This document shows positions 7,739 to 22,624 of a stretch of 64,000 bases of DNA, piece after piece; positions within the stretch are counted from its first letter, which is position 1; every line of letters begins with the position of its first letter. Source of the DNA: Bacteroidota bacterium (GTDB lineage: Bacteria; Bacteroidota; Bacteroidia; 2-12-FULL-35-15); assembly GCA_023251805.1 (NCBI GenBank), contig JAHEYB010000006.1, positions 1 to 64,000 of the forward strand, read 5' to 3'. The notes below the pieces were generated by a model that did no database searches, was not told where the DNA came from, and saw only the letters and a list, made by a program, of their open reading frames with translations. The position numbers were made by a program, and so were the translations under genes.

Positions 7739-7940
7739 ATTAAATCTTAATTTTCAATTACTTATGACACATATCTTGCGTAATTAGCAAATATCGTAAA
7801 AATTGGTTAAAAACAACGCAAATCAGACAATAAGTTTGCCACAAAATTTACACATAAAAACAGCGTGTTTTTCTACTGGTTTTAATTTTAATTTTTTTTG
7901 CTTACTTTTATAAAAAAAGCCTTTAAAATATACATCTTCA

Positions 7941-9074
7941 ATGAGTCTAAGCTACTGGGAACAAACTACTTATTTCAACGATATCGATGTCGCAATTATT
8001 GGTAGCGGAATTGTAGGATTGAACGCGGCATTAACTCTCAAAAAAAAGCATAGTAATTTAAAGATACTTGTACTCGAAAGAGGTATGTTGCCTAGCGGTG
8101 CAAGCTCTAAAAATGCAGGATTTGCTTGCTTTGGCAGTGCAAGTGAACTGCTTACCGATTTAAAAAACACATCAGAAAATGAAACCTTCTCACTGGTGGA
8201 AAAACGCTGGAAAGGTTTACTGCGACTGAGAAAAAATTTGGGAGACAAAACCATTGATTTTCACAATTGGGGTGGGTATGAGGTTTTTGACTCTAACAAA
8301 CAATATGATTTTTGCGAATCAAAAATTGCTTATTTGAATAAGCATACTTCTCCTATTATCGGTAAAAAAAATGTGTATCAAAATGCCGACAGCAAGATTA
8401 AATCGTTTGGTTTCAAGCAAGTAAAACACATGATAGTAAATACTGCCGAAGCCCAAATAGACACAGGAAAAATGATTAGCGCCCTCATTTCAAAAGTAAG
8501 AAAATTGGGCATTGAAGTCATAAATGGATTTGATGTAAAAAGTGTAGAAGATGATGGAAAAAGTGTGACAATTAGTGCTAGCGACCATTCTGTTTTAAAA
8601 TGCAAAAGAGTAATTATTGCGACAAATGGTTTTGCAAAGCAGCTTTTACCCGGGTATGCAGTTGAGCCTGCTCGAGCACAAGTTTTAATTACTCAACCCA
8701 TTAAAAACTTAAAACTAAAAGGCACGTTTCATTTCGATAATGGGTATTATTACTTTAGAAATATTAACAACAGGGTTTTATTTGGCGGAGGAAGAAATCT
8801 GGATTTAAAAACGGAAGAAACAACCGAATTTGGTTTAACACAATTGGTGCAAAATAAATTAGAAAGCTTATTGAGTACCATGATACTTCCAAACAGCAAG
8901 CACACGATTGATATGCGCTGGAGCGGAATAATGGGTGTTGGTCCACAAAAGAAAAGTATTGTAAGAGCAACGAGCAACAATGTTTTTTGTGCTGTTCGAC
9001 TAGGTGGAATGGGTGTTGCAATTGGTAGTTTGGTAGGCGAAGAAGTTGCACAAATGGTTTCCGAAAGTATGTAA
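7941..9074 (+). CDS. FAD-dependent oxidoreductase (DAO / glycine oxidase-like)
   Basis: N-terminal VAIIGSGIVGLNAALTL dinucleotide-binding motif; SGASSKNAGFACFG; C-terminal MRWSGIMGVGP. Confidence 0.9.
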   Translation: MSLSYWEQTTYFNDIDVAIIGSGIVGLNAALTLKKKHSNLKILVLERGMLPSGASSKNAGFACFGSASELLTDLKNTSENETFSLVEKRWKGLLRLRKNLGDKTIDFHNWGGYEVFDSNKQYDFCESKIAYLNKHTSPIIGKKNVYQNADSKIKSFGFKQVKHMIVNTAEAQIDTGKMISALISKVRKLGIEVINGFDVKSVEDDGKSVTISASDHSVLKCKRVIIATNGFAKQLLPGYAVEPARAQVLITQPIKNLKLKGTFHFDNGYYYFRNINNRVLFGGGRNLDLKTEETTEFGLTQLVQNKLESLLSTMILPNSKHTIDMRWSGIMGVGPQKKSIVRATSNNVFCAVRLGGMGVAIGSLVGEEVAQMVSESM

Positions 9075-15976: not shown

Positions 15977-18388
15977 TTACTTTTTTACAATTCGTTTGTT
16001 TATGGTTGACGTTTCAGACACCAATCGAATAAAATAAACTCCATTCGAATAGTCTGACATATCAAGAACAAACACTTTTTTATCAGAAGTAGTTTTAAAA
16101 ATTTCTCTTCCTGTTACATCTGTTAAAATCAATTCGTAATTTTTATTATTGTTGCTTATTTCTATGTTTAATATATCACTCGTTGGATTTGGATACATCT
16201 TACCTAACATCTCAGTAGAAGTATTTATTCCCGTTGCCGCGCAATTTTCAACAACAAGGTTTTGAGCAATCATAGATTGACAAGAATTGATATCGGTGTA
16301 GGTATACGTAATTGAAAAAGTTCCTATTCCAGAAGTAGCAGGATTAAAATTACCGGCACTCACTCCTGTTCCTGAATATGTTCCGCCTGTTGGCATTCCA
16401 CCCGACAAAGCAAAAGAAGGGTCATTATCACAAACTGTATCAGTAGCTAAATTAAAAGACACAGCAGGAAGAGGGTTGGTAGTAACACTAACCATATCTG
16501 TATTGGTACAACTATTTGCAGCCGTTCCAGTAACAGTATAAACAGTAGTTCCAATAGGCGAAGCAAAAGCAACTCCATTAGTAACTCCACCGTTCCAAAC
16601 ATAACTTACTGCACCTGCACCATTTAAAGTAGCCATGTTGCCAAAACAAACCGACTGATCTAAACCAGCATTCACGGTTGGAGAAGGAATAAAAGTGATA
16701 GTGATTTGTGCTGTTGTTACCGGACAAACACCTGTTCCCGTAGGAGTCAAAGTAAGAATAACACTTGATGCTGCTATATCCGCAGCAGAAGGTGCATAAG
16801 TAGTATTTAAATTCATAGGGTTTGCAAATGTTCCCGTTCCACTGGTTGTCCAGTTTCCTCCCGTTGCTCCCGTAACACTTCCAGAAACTACAACTGCCGG
16901 AACCGCTGAACAAACAGTTTGATTTGTTCCTGCGTTTGCTGTAGATGCTGCTGTTACTGTAATGTTTAAATTGAAAGTCATTGGAGGACAACCATCACCA
17001 TATGTTTTTATAACGGTAATTGTTCCATTTGTAGCAATATTGTTAATTGTCACCATTTGTGAAGTACTACTTCCGCTAATGATTCCTGTGGTTGTTGACC
17101 AGCTATAAGCAGAAGCAAATTCATTATTGATAGAAAACTGAACACCGCTAGAGTTTGCACAAACAGAAGTAGGTCCCATGATAGTTGCCACTTCATTACA
17201 ATAATGAAATTTAACATCATCAATCAATAAAGTGCTATTGTTAACAGCTGTCATCCATCTTCCTGATTCAAATGAAATAAAAGCACTATCAGGTGTTGGT
17301 CCAGGTGTTGGTATATTCATTGATTTAAATGTCCAAGTAGCAGATGGTAGCAGCGCCATCCAATTGCCAGTAACACCAATTCCTCCTGCTAATAAATTTA
17401 CGTATGCCGAAGCTGTATCCACTCCTGGAGTAGAATACTTATAATAAAAACCAAAACCTTTAGGAGTAGATGGAATACTCATTCCAGGTCGCATTAAACA
17501 AGGGCCACCACCTGGAGGGCAATCCCATGAACCCATTTGAGCTCGACCTATTCTGCTGTCGGAGCCTGAAATAATATTTTTTAAGAGCAAAGAATAATTT
17601 CCTGCATAAGCATCCATGGATTTAGCAAAAGTAATTTTCTCGGGCACATCAACTTCTACAGTCCAGTCCAAAGGAATTTCAACAGCAGGAATATCTTGCC
17701 ATACATCTAAATTTCCACCAAGAAAAACATCGGTGGTTCCTGTCCAAGCAAAATTATCTACTTCCAAAAAATCTCCCGGAGTACCTAAATTTGTCATTAT
17801 TTGATCTGAGCAAGTAACAAATATGATACAAGAATCTGGGTTCATAGTAAGAGCAGGAGAAAATGTATAGTTCATCAAAGTAAATGTACTCTGACTACCA
17901 CTAATAGGATAAATATATGCACCAGGATAAATTCCGTTTCCGGCTCCTGAAGCAACCCCTGCAGTAGTTGGCAAAAAAGCAATAAAACCTGCAGTGGATG
18001 CATTCACATTGTAGCGAACATTCACATTACAGCCTGTTAATGGTTGAACAGCAGGAAGTGGAACACCGTCTGACATTGCCCCACCATTCACATTTCCCCA
18101 TGAGCAATAGCCATTCAAAGTATCTCCAAATGGAGAAAGAATATTTTCAACACGTACTGCACTTCCAGAAACACCGGGAACTTCTGTGGCATTCAGAAGC
18201 CCATATTGATAAAATGTTTCAAAATTAGAACTTGAAAACAATGGAGTAGGCAAAACAACTGGATGCTGAAAAGTAGGGGCTATTGTCCAATTTTCAAAAC
18301 TATTGTTTGGTACCACTTGTGCTTTGATGCTATTTACGCTTGTAAGAATAGATACAGCCATAAATGCATTGAGTAGATTTTTTTTCAT
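15977..18388 (-). CDS. Secreted protein with Ig-like repeats and T9SS type A sorting domain
   Basis: Signal peptide; C-terminal MYPNPTSDILNIEISNN...LTDVTGREIFKTTSDKK..LDMSDYSNGVYFIRLVSETSTINKRIVKK. Confidence 0.9.
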   Translation of the reverse strand: MKKNLLNAFMAVSILTSVNSIKAQVVPNNSFENWTIAPTFQHPVVLPTPLFSSSNFETFYQYGLLNATEVPGVSGSAVRVENILSPFGDTLNGYCSWGNVNGGAMSDGVPLPAVQPLTGCNVNVRYNVNASTAGFIAFLPTTAGVASGAGNGIYPGAYIYPISGSQSTFTLMNYTFSPALTMNPDSCIIFVTCSDQIMTNLGTPGDFLEVDNFAWTGTTDVFLGGNLDVWQDIPAVEIPLDWTVEVDVPEKITFAKSMDAYAGNYSLLLKNIISGSDSRIGRAQMGSWDCPPGGGPCLMRPGMSIPSTPKGFGFYYKYSTPGVDTASAYVNLLAGGIGVTGNWMALLPSATWTFKSMNIPTPGPTPDSAFISFESGRWMTAVNNSTLLIDDVKFHYCNEVATIMGPTSVCANSSGVQFSINNEFASAYSWSTTTGIISGSSTSQMVTINNIATNGTITVIKTYGDGCPPMTFNLNITVTAASTANAGTNQTVCSAVPAVVVSGSVTGATGGNWTTSGTGTFANPMNLNTTYAPSAADIAASSVILTLTPTGTGVCPVTTAQITITFIPSPTVNAGLDQSVCFGNMATLNGAGAVSYVWNGGVTNGVAFASPIGTTVYTVTGTAANSCTNTDMVSVTTNPLPAVSFNLATDTVCDNDPSFALSGGMPTGGTYSGTGVSAGNFNPATSGIGTFSITYTYTDINSCQSMIAQNLVVENCAATGINTSTEMLGKMYPNPTSDILNIEISNNNKNYELILTDVTGREIFKTTSDKKVFVLDMSDYSNGVYFIRLVSETSTINKRIVKK

Positions 18389-18500: not shown

Positions 18501-19217
18501 TTAACTGATTGGCAATAAATCGCAAAACCAAAACCCTTTGGTAGATGTGGCATTGATGTTACAATCCGTTTTTTTTATTTCTAGTGGCTTGTAAACTTTT
18601 TCTCCGAGAGTAAATTTGATGCGATTTTTAAAAATAGGACCGTCAAAACAAAAAGTATGATATTCGCCATTCTCTCCGCAAGGATCTACATCCTTTGGCA
18701 ATGCCTGCAAGAACGCTGCATCTATCTCCACTCCTACATTTTCTTCTTTTAAGGATGCGTCATTTACACAGCACGTGATTGTTTTAAATTCCAAATCAAT
18801 AAATTCATTTATTAACTTCTTTGTGTCTTTTTTCCACAAAGGAAATTCAGCTTTTAATCCAACCTTAGCCAAATTATTTTCTCTATACAATCTTAAATCT
18901 TCTAAAAATATGTCTCCGAAAATAACTTTTGTTACACCTAGCAATTTGTATTTCAAAAGCAATACTTCCATTTCTTTTTCGTACTCTTTATTAGTGCCCT
19001 CTGATACATACATTTTGATTAAAGGTAAACCAATGGACTTGGCTTGTTCTTCCAACAGTTCTTCCCGAACACCATGCATAGATATTCTTTTAAATTGTGC
19101 GTTGATAGTGGTTAGTAATGCAACAATTTCATATTTATCTTCTAAACCAATAGTATACAATGCTAGAGCGGAGTCTTTCCCTCCGCTCCAACAAAATATG
19201 CATTTCTCTTTTTTCAT
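18501..19217 (-). CDS. Dph6-like (COG2102) ATP-pyrophosphatase, diphthine--ammonia ligase family
   Basis: CWSGGKDSALALY PP-loop; SMHGVREELLEEQAKSIGLPL; VIFGDIFLEDLRLYRE; DPCGENGEYHTFCFDGPIF. Confidence 0.9.
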   Translation of the reverse strand: MKKEKCIFCWSGGKDSALALYTIGLEDKYEIVALLTTINAQFKRISMHGVREELLEEQAKSIGLPLIKMYVSEGTNKEYEKEMEVLLLKYKLLGVTKVIFGDIFLEDLRLYRENNLAKVGLKAEFPLWKKDTKKLINEFIDLEFKTITCCVNDASLKEENVGVEIDAAFLQALPKDVDPCGENGEYHTFCFDGPIFKNRIKFTLGEKVYKPLEIKKTDCNINATSTKGFWFCDLLPIS

Positions 19218-20302
19218 TATCTGAAAAAGAAATTACCTGGAATAACCCCAACAGCAAAACTGTCAACCAGTGTGGCAGAAGCATTGTATCGAATAACTTT
19301 TCCATTACTAACAAAATCTACCGCATCCGAGCCATAGAAATAATCATTGGTTGGATCTATTCCAAAACCATAAAAACTTCTATTAATAAGTGCTGTTCCA
19401 CTTAATATTGACGATGACGTTGAATGTGAATACACCGCACTGCTATATGAATAATACAACATCGTTTTTGCATTGTTGATTACCAAATTTGATGGTTGCG
19501 AAAAAGTAGATGCAAATGGTAATGATAAATCTACCGCATTAGTGGCGGTATCAATACGAACCAATTTACCTGGCTTTTGTAAAAACGTGTAGGTTGCATC
19601 CCATTCTCCCGAACACAATACCCATACTTTCCCTCCGGCATCCATTTTAATACTTCTAGGATTTGCTCCAACATTAATAGTTGTACTCACCGAATTGGTT
19701 ACTGAATTAATAACCGTTACAACGCTATCATTTGTAAATCCACCACTGCATGCAACATACACTTTGCTTCCAGCCAATACCATTCCTTCTGCTCCATTGC
19801 CTGTTGTAATTGTTCCTGTAATTGTTTTTGTAGTTAAATCAATAATTTTAACTGCTCCCGCCATTCCTCCTGAGCCCCACTCAGAAACATATCCCTTTGA
19901 AGAATTAATTCCCAAGAAATATCTAGGGTAAGTAAAACCTGTAATTGCTCCGCTACTTGCAAAAGAAGTACCATCAGCTATTTCAACTTTACCGGCATTG
20001 TTTACTACAATGTATGCCTTGCTGTTAAATATTTCCATCGACTGAACAATGTTTCCTAATGGATAACCATTTTTTGCTTCAAAAATATCGTTGGATACTC
20101 CACCCGTACTTCTGTTATAAAAATTAATGGTTCCTGTTCCACTTCCAAACGGACCTTCATTTGTAATAAATACTCCTGAAGCATAGGAAGTTCCTCCTGC
20201 CCCGCCTCCCGTTGCCGGCTCGGGATCGTCTTTTTTGCAACTTGAAATAGTAATAGCAGTTGCTAATACACTAAGATAAAATAATTGTTTTGTTTTAATC
20301 AT
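19217..20302 (-). CDS. BtuG-like DUF5074/YncE-type beta-propeller lipoprotein
   Basis: Likely start MIKTKQLF at 20302 (ORF track extends to 20347); lipobox ISSCKKDD; GVFITNEGPFGSGTGTINFYNR, NGYPLGNIVQSM, repeated blade motifs; lies in the riboswitch operon. Confidence 0.82.
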   Translation of the reverse strand: MIKTKQLFYLSVLATAITISSCKKDDPEPATGGGAGGTSYASGVFITNEGPFGSGTGTINFYNRSTGGVSNDIFEAKNGYPLGNIVQSMEIFNSKAYIVVNNAGKVEIADGTSFASSGAITGFTYPRYFLGINSSKGYVSEWGSGGMAGAVKIIDLTTKTITGTITTGNGAEGMVLAGSKVYVACSGGFTNDSVVTVINSVTNSVSTTINVGANPRSIKMDAGGKVWVLCSGEWDATYTFLQKPGKLVRIDTATNAVDLSLPFASTFSQPSNLVINNAKTMLYYSYSSAVYSHSTSSSILSGTALINRSFYGFGIDPTNDYFYGSDAVDFVSNGKVIRYNASATLVDSFAVGVIPGNFFFR

Positions 20303-20394
20303 GGCTTTGTTTTTAAAATTTAAATAGTTGTACATTTTTGTCTTCATTTTTTTTATTCACTCAAGTTTTACAAATTGAAATTGATTTTTAATTA

Positions 20395-22320
20395 TTATTT
20401 TGGATTTGGTTGGTTAAATACTAAAGATAAACCCACTTGATAGTTAAATAAGGGCATTGCTCTGTATGCCAGAACTTGATACGTTTCTTGCCACACATTG
20501 TTGAGCTGAGCAAATATTTTTAGTTTAGAAGTTGACAAAGAAAATGTTTGTGACACTGAAATGTTGGCTAGCGAATAGGGCTTTAAATAGTTGGAATTAT
20601 CTGAAAGTGTGTAACGATAGCCTGTATATAGCTGCGTATAATTCAAAGAAGTTCCTTTATAAATAATACTGGCGCTTCCTTGTGCGTTTTGTATAGGAAC
20701 ATAAATTAATTGCTTTCCTACTGATACATCATTTGCTGTTGCTGCTTTTTCGTTGGTGGATAATACATAGTTGTACAAACCCGATAGTTGAAACTTAAAC
20801 TTATTTTTTTCTAAAATAAATTTCACTTTATACTCCACACCACGCGACCAAACTTTTAGAACATTTTCGGGCGACCAAATTCCGTATTCATCGGGCAACC
20901 AAATAATCCAATTATTTATATCGCGATTAAATGCTGTTGCTCCTAATTCCCAAAAAATATTTTTTTTTGAATAGCTATGTTCTAAGCTTGCCTCTTCACT
21001 CCATCCTTCTTCTGCTTTCAAATTAGGATTACCGCCTTGTGCCCAATATAAATCGTTGAATGTTGGTAAACGATAATGTTTTGCGGCACTAAGTTTAATC
21101 GAAAAATATTTTAGAAATTTTCCTCTTATTCCAATGGAAGGCGAAAAAGGAATAGCTTTATTTTCCACAAATTCCTCACGAGCGCTAACAACTGCAGTCC
21201 AAGAATCATTGTAAGTTTGAATTTTATAACTCGCAAAAATGGAGGTTCTGTTTTGATGCGGATTCTGAATATAATCTTCCGTAATTGCCTCACTGTAGGT
21301 ATTATTCAAGCCTATATTGACTATATCAAATTTTGTAATACTGAAGTTGTTCTCCGCCTCAGTAATAAAAACTTTTGTCCGGCTTTTTGAATCAATATCA
21401 ATAGAAGAATCTGCAAAAAAAAGATATTCATCAAAATATGCAGCTCTAACAATTGATTTTATTTTTGCTCCTGTTCGCTGCCACTCTGATGTTAGTCTAT
21501 ACAATTCATCTTTCTGATTTGAAACATTTATATTTTGAGTCATAGAAGGCGGAATGTTTCTATCATTGAATTGATACCAAAAACGAGTATTTATTTTTTG
21601 ACGAGAGTTTAGTTGAAAATAATTTTCCTGCATCAAACCATACTCCTGCAATTCAGCATTGGTTTGCCTTTGCAATGGTTTACCATATTGAGCACTATTG
21701 ACAAAAGGGAAATCATTTTTAGCATCGTGGTTAAACAGTTTAACAGAAGAAATAAAACGTTTTTTGCTTATTTCTATTTGTGCTTGCTGCTGTTTATCAG
21801 AAAAACTTCCAAAAGTTGTATTCGTTGCAAAAGAAATTCCTCGATTATAGATTCCAATATTATTTAAATGAATACTTCCACCAACAGCTCCCGAGCCCCA
21901 CATTGCACCACCTCCACCATATTGCACTTTTGCCTCATTCATAAAATTTGCTGGAATTAATGATAAATCAATTAAACCATTCATCGGACTTTGTAAATTA
22001 AAGCCATTCCATAAAACCGCTGTGTGGCTTGCTCCTGCGCCTCTGAAAGAAGTAGTTGCCAAACTTCCCAAACCATAGGATTTTATAAAAATTTGGCTTT
22101 CATTTACAAGAACATCCGCTAGATTATTTGTTGAGTAGCGATTTAATAAAGTACTGTCGAATGTTTCGGTTTTAGAAGAATTAGAGAAAAGTATATATTT
22201 TGAATCCGACACCTCCACCACATTTAGTTGGGTAGATGAATCGATAGGGATTTGCTGAGCATAACCGGTTAAGGAAAGCAGAGCAAATGATAACATACAA
22301 TTAATCTTAAATAAATTCAT
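20395..22320 (-). CDS. btuB: TonB-dependent outer membrane receptor, BtuB-like (predicted cobalamin uptake)
   Basis: Likely start MNLFKINCML at 22320 (ORF extends to 22359); plug motif TTSFRGAGASHTAVLWNGFNLQSPMNGLIDLSLIP; directly downstream of a cobalamin riboswitch. Confidence 0.85.
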   Translation of the reverse strand: MNLFKINCMLSFALLSLTGYAQQIPIDSSTQLNVVEVSDSKYILFSNSSKTETFDSTLLNRYSTNNLADVLVNESQIFIKSYGLGSLATTSFRGAGASHTAVLWNGFNLQSPMNGLIDLSLIPANFMNEAKVQYGGGGAMWGSGAVGGSIHLNNIGIYNRGISFATNTTFGSFSDKQQQAQIEISKKRFISSVKLFNHDAKNDFPFVNSAQYGKPLQRQTNAELQEYGLMQENYFQLNSRQKINTRFWYQFNDRNIPPSMTQNINVSNQKDELYRLTSEWQRTGAKIKSIVRAAYFDEYLFFADSSIDIDSKSRTKVFITEAENNFSITKFDIVNIGLNNTYSEAITEDYIQNPHQNRTSIFASYKIQTYNDSWTAVVSAREEFVENKAIPFSPSIGIRGKFLKYFSIKLSAAKHYRLPTFNDLYWAQGGNPNLKAEEGWSEEASLEHSYSKKNIFWELGATAFNRDINNWIIWLPDEYGIWSPENVLKVWSRGVEYKVKFILEKNKFKFQLSGLYNYVLSTNEKAATANDVSVGKQLIYVPIQNAQGSASIIYKGTSLNYTQLYTGYRYTLSDNSNYLKPYSLANISVSQTFSLSTSKLKIFAQLNNVWQETYQVLAYRAMPLFNYQVGLSLVFNQPNPK

Positions 22321-22439
22321 TACAAACGATTTAGCGATAAGCTCAATCATAAGCAACAAACGGTAAAATTGTAAGGATAGAAAAATGAAAAATTATTCGT
22401 CTACTCTTCGCCTTTTCTCCGAAAGCTACAAATGTTATT

Positions 22440-22612
22440 TACTTTTTGGCAGGTCTCCTGACTCACTCTAGTGCACCTTCCCATCGGCCTTAGGCAGATA
22501 GTGGTTTGTAGAACACATTTTCCTTTCGAAAAGAGCTTACAGTTGCGGGAACAGTTCTTGATTTCAACAAGATTCCCTTTTAATCCAGACAGTATCTTCT
22601 GGAACCAATAGT
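22440..22612 (-). ncRNA. Cobalamin riboswitch
   Basis: Minus strand: GGGAAT..TTGAAATCAAGAACTGTTCCCGCAACTGTAAG...GATGGGAAGGTGCACTAGAGTGAGTCAGGAGACCTGCC, the canonical conserved blocks in order. Confidence 0.95.
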
Positions 22613-22616
22613 GATG

Positions 22617-22624
22617 CAAATGTA
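22617..22624 (-). promoter_or_regulatory. Bacteroidota -7 element for the cobalamin operon
   Basis: Minus strand TACATTTG matches TAnnTTTG, directly upstream of the riboswitch. Confidence 0.6.

Follow-up and report, generated by a model that had tools for sequence, protein, structure and literature searches.

Dph6, the diphthine--ammonia ligase, joins a carboxylate and ammonia into an amide at the expense of ATP, which is split into PPi and AMP; the underlying acyl-adenylate logic is shared by related PP-loop enzymes. The diphthamide pathway is absent from bacteria, and a bacterial subgroup of COG2102/PF01902, marked by ENGEF/YH in place of the EGGE/DxE188 motif, was set apart as DUF71-B12 (de Crecy-Lagard 2012, PMC3541065). 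According to that work, the EF-2-contacting positions differ in this subgroup, 75 of 102 members lie beside B12 transporter genes, and the predicted function is in B12 salvage, with a role equivalent to that of bacterial CbiZ. In a review from 2016, DUF71-B12 still figures as a subgroup of unknown function in B12 salvage (PMC5041015), and a search of the open-access literature, with subscription papers mostly outside it, found no biochemical or genetic work on the subgroup.

The other close point of reference is the set of BtuB-BtuG uptake loci of Bacteroides (PMC6143338, PMC10404256). The window analysed here, a 64,000-nucleotide stretch of DNA from a Bacteroidota bacterium, contains a locus with the same arrangement of riboswitch, BtuB and BtuG, and its products closely match solved BtuB-BtuG complexes. 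It differs from the Bacteroides loci in its accessory protein, which is a cytosolic ATPase rather than a surface B12-binding lipoprotein; the B. thetaiotaomicron operon paper that we searched mentions no diphthamide-type protein. The window member also differs from DUF71-B12 as published in lying under a cobalamin riboswitch together with btuB and btuG.

A preliminary description of the window had singled out this gene as one with an incompletely described function and had suggested that its product amidates a corrinoid. A B12 role has been predicted for the subgroup since 2012; because the B12-salvage link was already published (PMC3541065), that idea is largely known. Two things are new here: the statistics on linkage to riboswitches, and evidence that speaks against a CbiZ-like role in Bacteroidota. 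A DUF71-B12 protein can easily be taken for a diphthamide enzyme, and if such proteins act on corrinoids, they would represent an unrecognised cytosolic step between B12 uptake and use in scavenging bacteria.

The operon and its Dph6-like protein

The PP-loop gene proved to be real, on a strand that the preliminary description had left unstated (Table 1). Its ATG, as described there, begins inside the stop codon of the propeller lipoprotein gene: in the TAATG at 19219-19215, the start takes the last base of the TAA, giving a one-base overlap (...TTCAGATAATGAAAAAA...). Conservation does not extend to this junction: at locus L091, which holds the closest relative (78% identity), btuG and DUF71 are separated by a secreted-protein gene, a 77%-identical homologue of the one located after DUF71 in the window. 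The placement in a cobalamin-riboswitch operon, by comparison, stands: the riboswitch and the btuB-like, btuG-like and DUF71 genes are all collinear, and membership of such operons is conserved far beyond chance. A hairpin scan found no terminator-like hairpins in the gaps between the operon genes; the two that it found elsewhere both lie within coding regions, and are fewer than in shuffled sequences. The gene for the 803-aa secreted protein, about 112 bases downstream of DUF71, is probably the fourth gene of the operon. No other Pfam domain was found in this protein, which may be a surface corrinoid-binding protein because its L091 homologue sits inside the riboswitch operon. The signal peptide MIKTKQ...TISSC suggests that the true start of the btuG-like gene lies near 20302.

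Table 1. Features of the riboswitch operon in the window
Feature	Coordinates	Strand	Evidence
803-aa type IX-secreted protein	15977..18388	minus	same strand; homologue in relative L091
DUF71-B12 subgroup PP-loop ATPase (PF01902), 238 aa	18501..19217	minus	ORF, Pfam match, motifs, AlphaFold model pLDDT 90.6, nearest folds 2D13/3RK1
BtuG-like surface propeller lipoprotein (DUF5074)	19217..20347	minus	DUF5074 E 5e-29; PDB 3DSM/8BMX E about 1e-42
BtuB-like TonB-dependent corrinoid receptor	20395..22359	minus	PDB 8P98/8P97 E about 1e-67
Cobalamin riboswitch RF00174, operon leader	22431..22624	minus	91.1 bits, E 2.9e-21

At the level of sequence, comparison establishes the family, the subgroup motif and the loss of the catalytic Glu of Dph6, along with riboswitch collinearity and recurrent linkage to B12 genes. 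PF01902 (E 2.8e-39) is the sole Pfam domain found in the DUF71 protein; PF01955, the CbiZ-type corrinoid amidohydrolase domain, is absent, and a PADLOC run returned no defence family. With Dph6 (PF0828, PDB 3RK1; PH1257, PDB 2D13) the protein shares its fold, the P-loop SGGKDS (residues 11-16), His48 and the GENGE/GEGGE loop, which here reads CGENGEYHTF (180-189). It departs from Dph6 in that His187 occupies the place of Glu188, and this His is invariant in alignments of 27 and 31 sequences. Archaeal Dph6 structures are the only ones returned by PDB sequence and profile searches and are the nearest solved folds to the AlphaFold model (TM 0.67-0.74).

Automatic annotation would name the protein a true diphthine--ammonia ligase, in line with its PF01902 match and nearest solved fold. 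Against this name, the score with the Dph6 equivalog TIGR03679 is 95.2 bits, below the cut-off of 197.3, CGENGEYH stands where Dph6 has EGGE/DxE188, and the pathway in which Dph6 works is one that bacteria lack (PMC3541065). In the tree, which came from a short search with two Dph6 sequences only, the bacterial members split from archaeal Dph6 with support 100. Dph6 identity is thus contradicted by motif and score, and we give it practically no chance. The preliminary view of a Dph6-family fold without true Dph6 function is borne out by the sub-cut-off score, His187 and the separate clade; judged on these features, the protein is Dph6-like in fold but is not Dph6. The features that mark DUF71-B12 are all present, namely PF01902 with SGGKDS, ENGEF/YH, a bacterial clade apart from archaeal Dph6 and clustering with genes of B12 transport or salvage, and we are confident that the protein belongs to DUF71-B12 and acts in the uptake or salvage of corrinoids.

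Linkage to B12 loci across genomes

Our survey sample comprised 238 Bacteroidota genomes, 64 with a DUF71 family member above the cut-off and 174 without. When 56 Bacteroidota DUF71 gene copies were compared with Rfam riboswitch positions, 18 were found within 5 kb downstream of a same-strand cobalamin riboswitch, against about 0.05 expected, and five further copies were near a riboswitch in other arrangements. The other 33 have no riboswitch nearby, notably those of Flavobacterium and Chryseobacterium. The 18/56 statistic is based on Rfam matches, and not on the two-motif riboswitch pattern used for the neighbourhood survey, which recovered 10/10 Rfam hits and gave one hit in shuffled loci vs 43 in real ones. 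Co-occurrence at the genome level is uninformative because almost all Bacteroidota have a riboswitch (52/52 genomes with DUF71 and 48/50 without).

The gene neighbourhoods point the same way. DUF71 comes directly first after the riboswitch in L047 (97 bp) and L135 (about 0.1 kb). The genes found immediately upstream of it encode BtuB, BtuG, BtuF, DUF6580, CobU or a sirtuin, and they often overlap it or end no more than 10 bases away. Beyond Bacteroidota, DUF71 follows TonB receptors and riboswitches in MAGs of Omnitrophota and Acidobacteriota (L165, L163), and a riboswitch in a Verrucomicrobia MAG (L098). The B12-linked copies are scattered over the tree, with 16 changes vs a shuffled mean of 28.8. 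Conserved linkage to B12 loci, on which the preliminary description had staked its proposal, thus recurs across Bacteroidota and beyond.

The same neighbourhoods bear on the possibility that the substrate is a protein or other small molecule that needs modification when B12 is scarce, the corrinoid being only a regulatory signal. This would agree with the fact that Dph6 itself modifies a protein, with the many DUF71 copies that are solitary and without B12 neighbours, and with the sirtuin gene that abuts DUF71 in operons of Sphingobacteriaceae. We consider it unlikely, given that in many lineages the genes found repeatedly beside DUF71 serve corrinoid transport and salvage. No hint of a function came from the genes next to the solitary copies (M1 peptidase, patatin, DUF7935, DUF1697), and the long ORFs in L105 and L127, inspected for fusion partners, carry no second Pfam domain.

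Corrinoid gene content and candidate reactions

Among the 238 genomes, CbiB was found in 46, CbiZ in 7, CobS in 71, strong matches to CobU in 64 and strong CbiA/CbiP-type GATase_3 matches in 56. The overlap with the 64 DUF71 genomes is nil for CbiB, CbiA/CbiP and CbiZ, 14 for CobS and 12 for CobU, and 50 of the 64 lack CobU, CobS and CbiB altogether. The negative associations, such as that between CbiB and DUF71, have small Fisher P values, but are not phylogenetically independent because a single family (f18) contributes 41 of the 46 genomes with CbiB. Within genera, CbiB occurs in only two of 180 genomes (G154, G283); both are without DUF71, but as 76 of the 180 are too, these two cases carry no weight. 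CbiB, CbiZ, CobU and CobS were not found in the host genome, whose own absences are weak evidence because it is only 80% complete; the trend is carried by the remaining genomes, of which almost every one is >90% complete. As far as gene content tells, DUF71 genomes are unable by known enzymes to turn cobyric acid, and mostly also cobinamide, into a cobamide, a statement that holds whether or not the genomes are phylogenetically independent.

This gene content weighs on the role proposed in 2012, in which (pseudo)cobamides would be cleaved to adenosylcobyric acid or remodelled, and the product rebuilt with the preferred lower ligand. The proposal draws on the anti-correlation of DUF71-B12 with CbiZ and its co-occurrence with CbiB in other phyla (PMC3541065). 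In some Bacteroidota, moreover, DUF71 lies directly between cobU and cobT/cobS/cobC: between cobU and cobT in L093, L099 and L101, and, in L034, L035 and L050, as a second DUF71 paralogue in CobU-DUF71-BluB/CobT-CobS-CobC operons. Yet cobyric acid could not be rebuilt where the CbiB needed for its reuse is missing, as in all 64 DUF71 genomes, and where CobU and CobS are missing as well, as in 50 of them; a PP-loop ATPase is also unlikely as a hydrolase. Because DUF71 never accompanies CbiB in the genomes sampled, the CbiZ-like role does not carry over to Bacteroidota, and we regard it as quite improbable for this protein. The absence of CbiB bears on that proposed function and not on membership of DUF71-B12, which is a matter of sequence.

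A ligase that forms cobinamide, joining aminopropanol to cobyric acid at the expense of ATP and so standing in for CbiB ahead of CobU, would suit the amide-forming PP-loop fold, the lack of CbiB in every DUF71 genome and the adjacency of cobU in several operons. For the 50 DUF71 genomes without CobU and CobS, the host's among them, cobinamide would be a dead end, however, and in other phyla DUF71-B12 and CbiB are reported to co-occur (PMC3541065); its chances appear slim. We also rejected the role of a missing adenosyltransferase, as the host has a PduO-type enzyme, and so do 54 of 55 DUF71 genomes; with PduO present, corrinoids appear to be used but their adenosylation is already covered.

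The genome survey likewise makes cobyrinic and cobyric acid, to which the preliminary idea of corrinoid amidation had pointed, poor candidates for its substrate in Bacteroidota, because the product could not be completed in genomes that have no CbiB or CbiA/CbiP and mostly no CobU or CobS. The survey thereby removes remodelling through cobyric acid and CbiB for most Bacteroidota members and leaves a smaller set of reactions. It suggests that the enzyme may use ATP to modify a corrinoid taken up by the cell, for instance by restoring an amide at a side-chain carboxylate. Overall, we think it fairly likely that the protein is the DUF71-B12 enzyme of a B12-uptake operon, repairing or completing under-amidated scavenged corrinoids. 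Side-chain amidation as the reaction itself is put forward more tentatively, at less than even odds. It would fit all contexts seen, because it would be useful to importers of cobamides and to finishers of cobinamide, and redundant where CbiA/CbiP exist.

Under this repair reading, the operon (riboswitch, btuB, btuG, DUF71, secreted protein) would serve B12 uptake under repression by its riboswitch, with DUF71 encoding its cytosolic enzyme, and B12 scarcity would cause the enzyme to be made together with the receptor. The enzyme would bind ATP at SGGKDS, activate a carboxylate of the imported corrinoid as an acyl-adenylate with release of PPi, and transfer ammonia to it to form the amide. Cells without CbiA/CbiP would most likely use it to mend or complete scavenged corrinoids that are under-amidated. 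The chemistry may differ from that of Dph6, because a His stands in for Glu188, the presumed catalytic residue. Three findings sit less easily with this reading: 33 of the 56 Bacteroidota copies, more than half, have no riboswitch nearby, 174 of the 238 genomes are without DUF71, many of them B12 scavengers, and we looked for signs that under-amidated corrinoids are a common nutrient and found none. More broadly, DUF71-B12 proteins as a whole might be PP-loop corrinoid amidases that depend on ammonia and mend or complete scavenged, under-amidated corrinoids in bacteria without the de novo pathway, with a chemistry derived from the diphthamide pathway and unrelated to that of the glutamine-dependent CbiA/CbiP; we offer this as a doubtful but possible generalisation.

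Several features of the surveyed loci deserve mention in their own right. A small membrane protein, DUF6580, recurs right after btuB in riboswitch operons (L065:5653-6243, L101:6868-7419, L169:5669-6256 and about ten other loci). Its predicted model is similar to ECF S-components and to BtuM, a B12 transporter (8OVV, TM 0.55-0.60, probability 0.99, but E 0.74), which makes it a candidate inner-membrane corrinoid importer. The sirtuin (SIR2) gene abuts or follows DUF71 in B12 operons of the Sphingobacteriaceae type at L065:7295-7990 and L069:8741-9424 and in L073, L144, L169 and L101. In L075 (G182:C16), an in-frame TAA splits the DUF71 gene at about 7911-8630, indicating either a pseudogene or an assembly error. 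Finally, salvage operons of the Flavobacterium type (L034, L035, L050) contain a fusion of BluB, the DMB synthase, with CobT beside the second DUF71 paralogue, as at L034:8860-10536.
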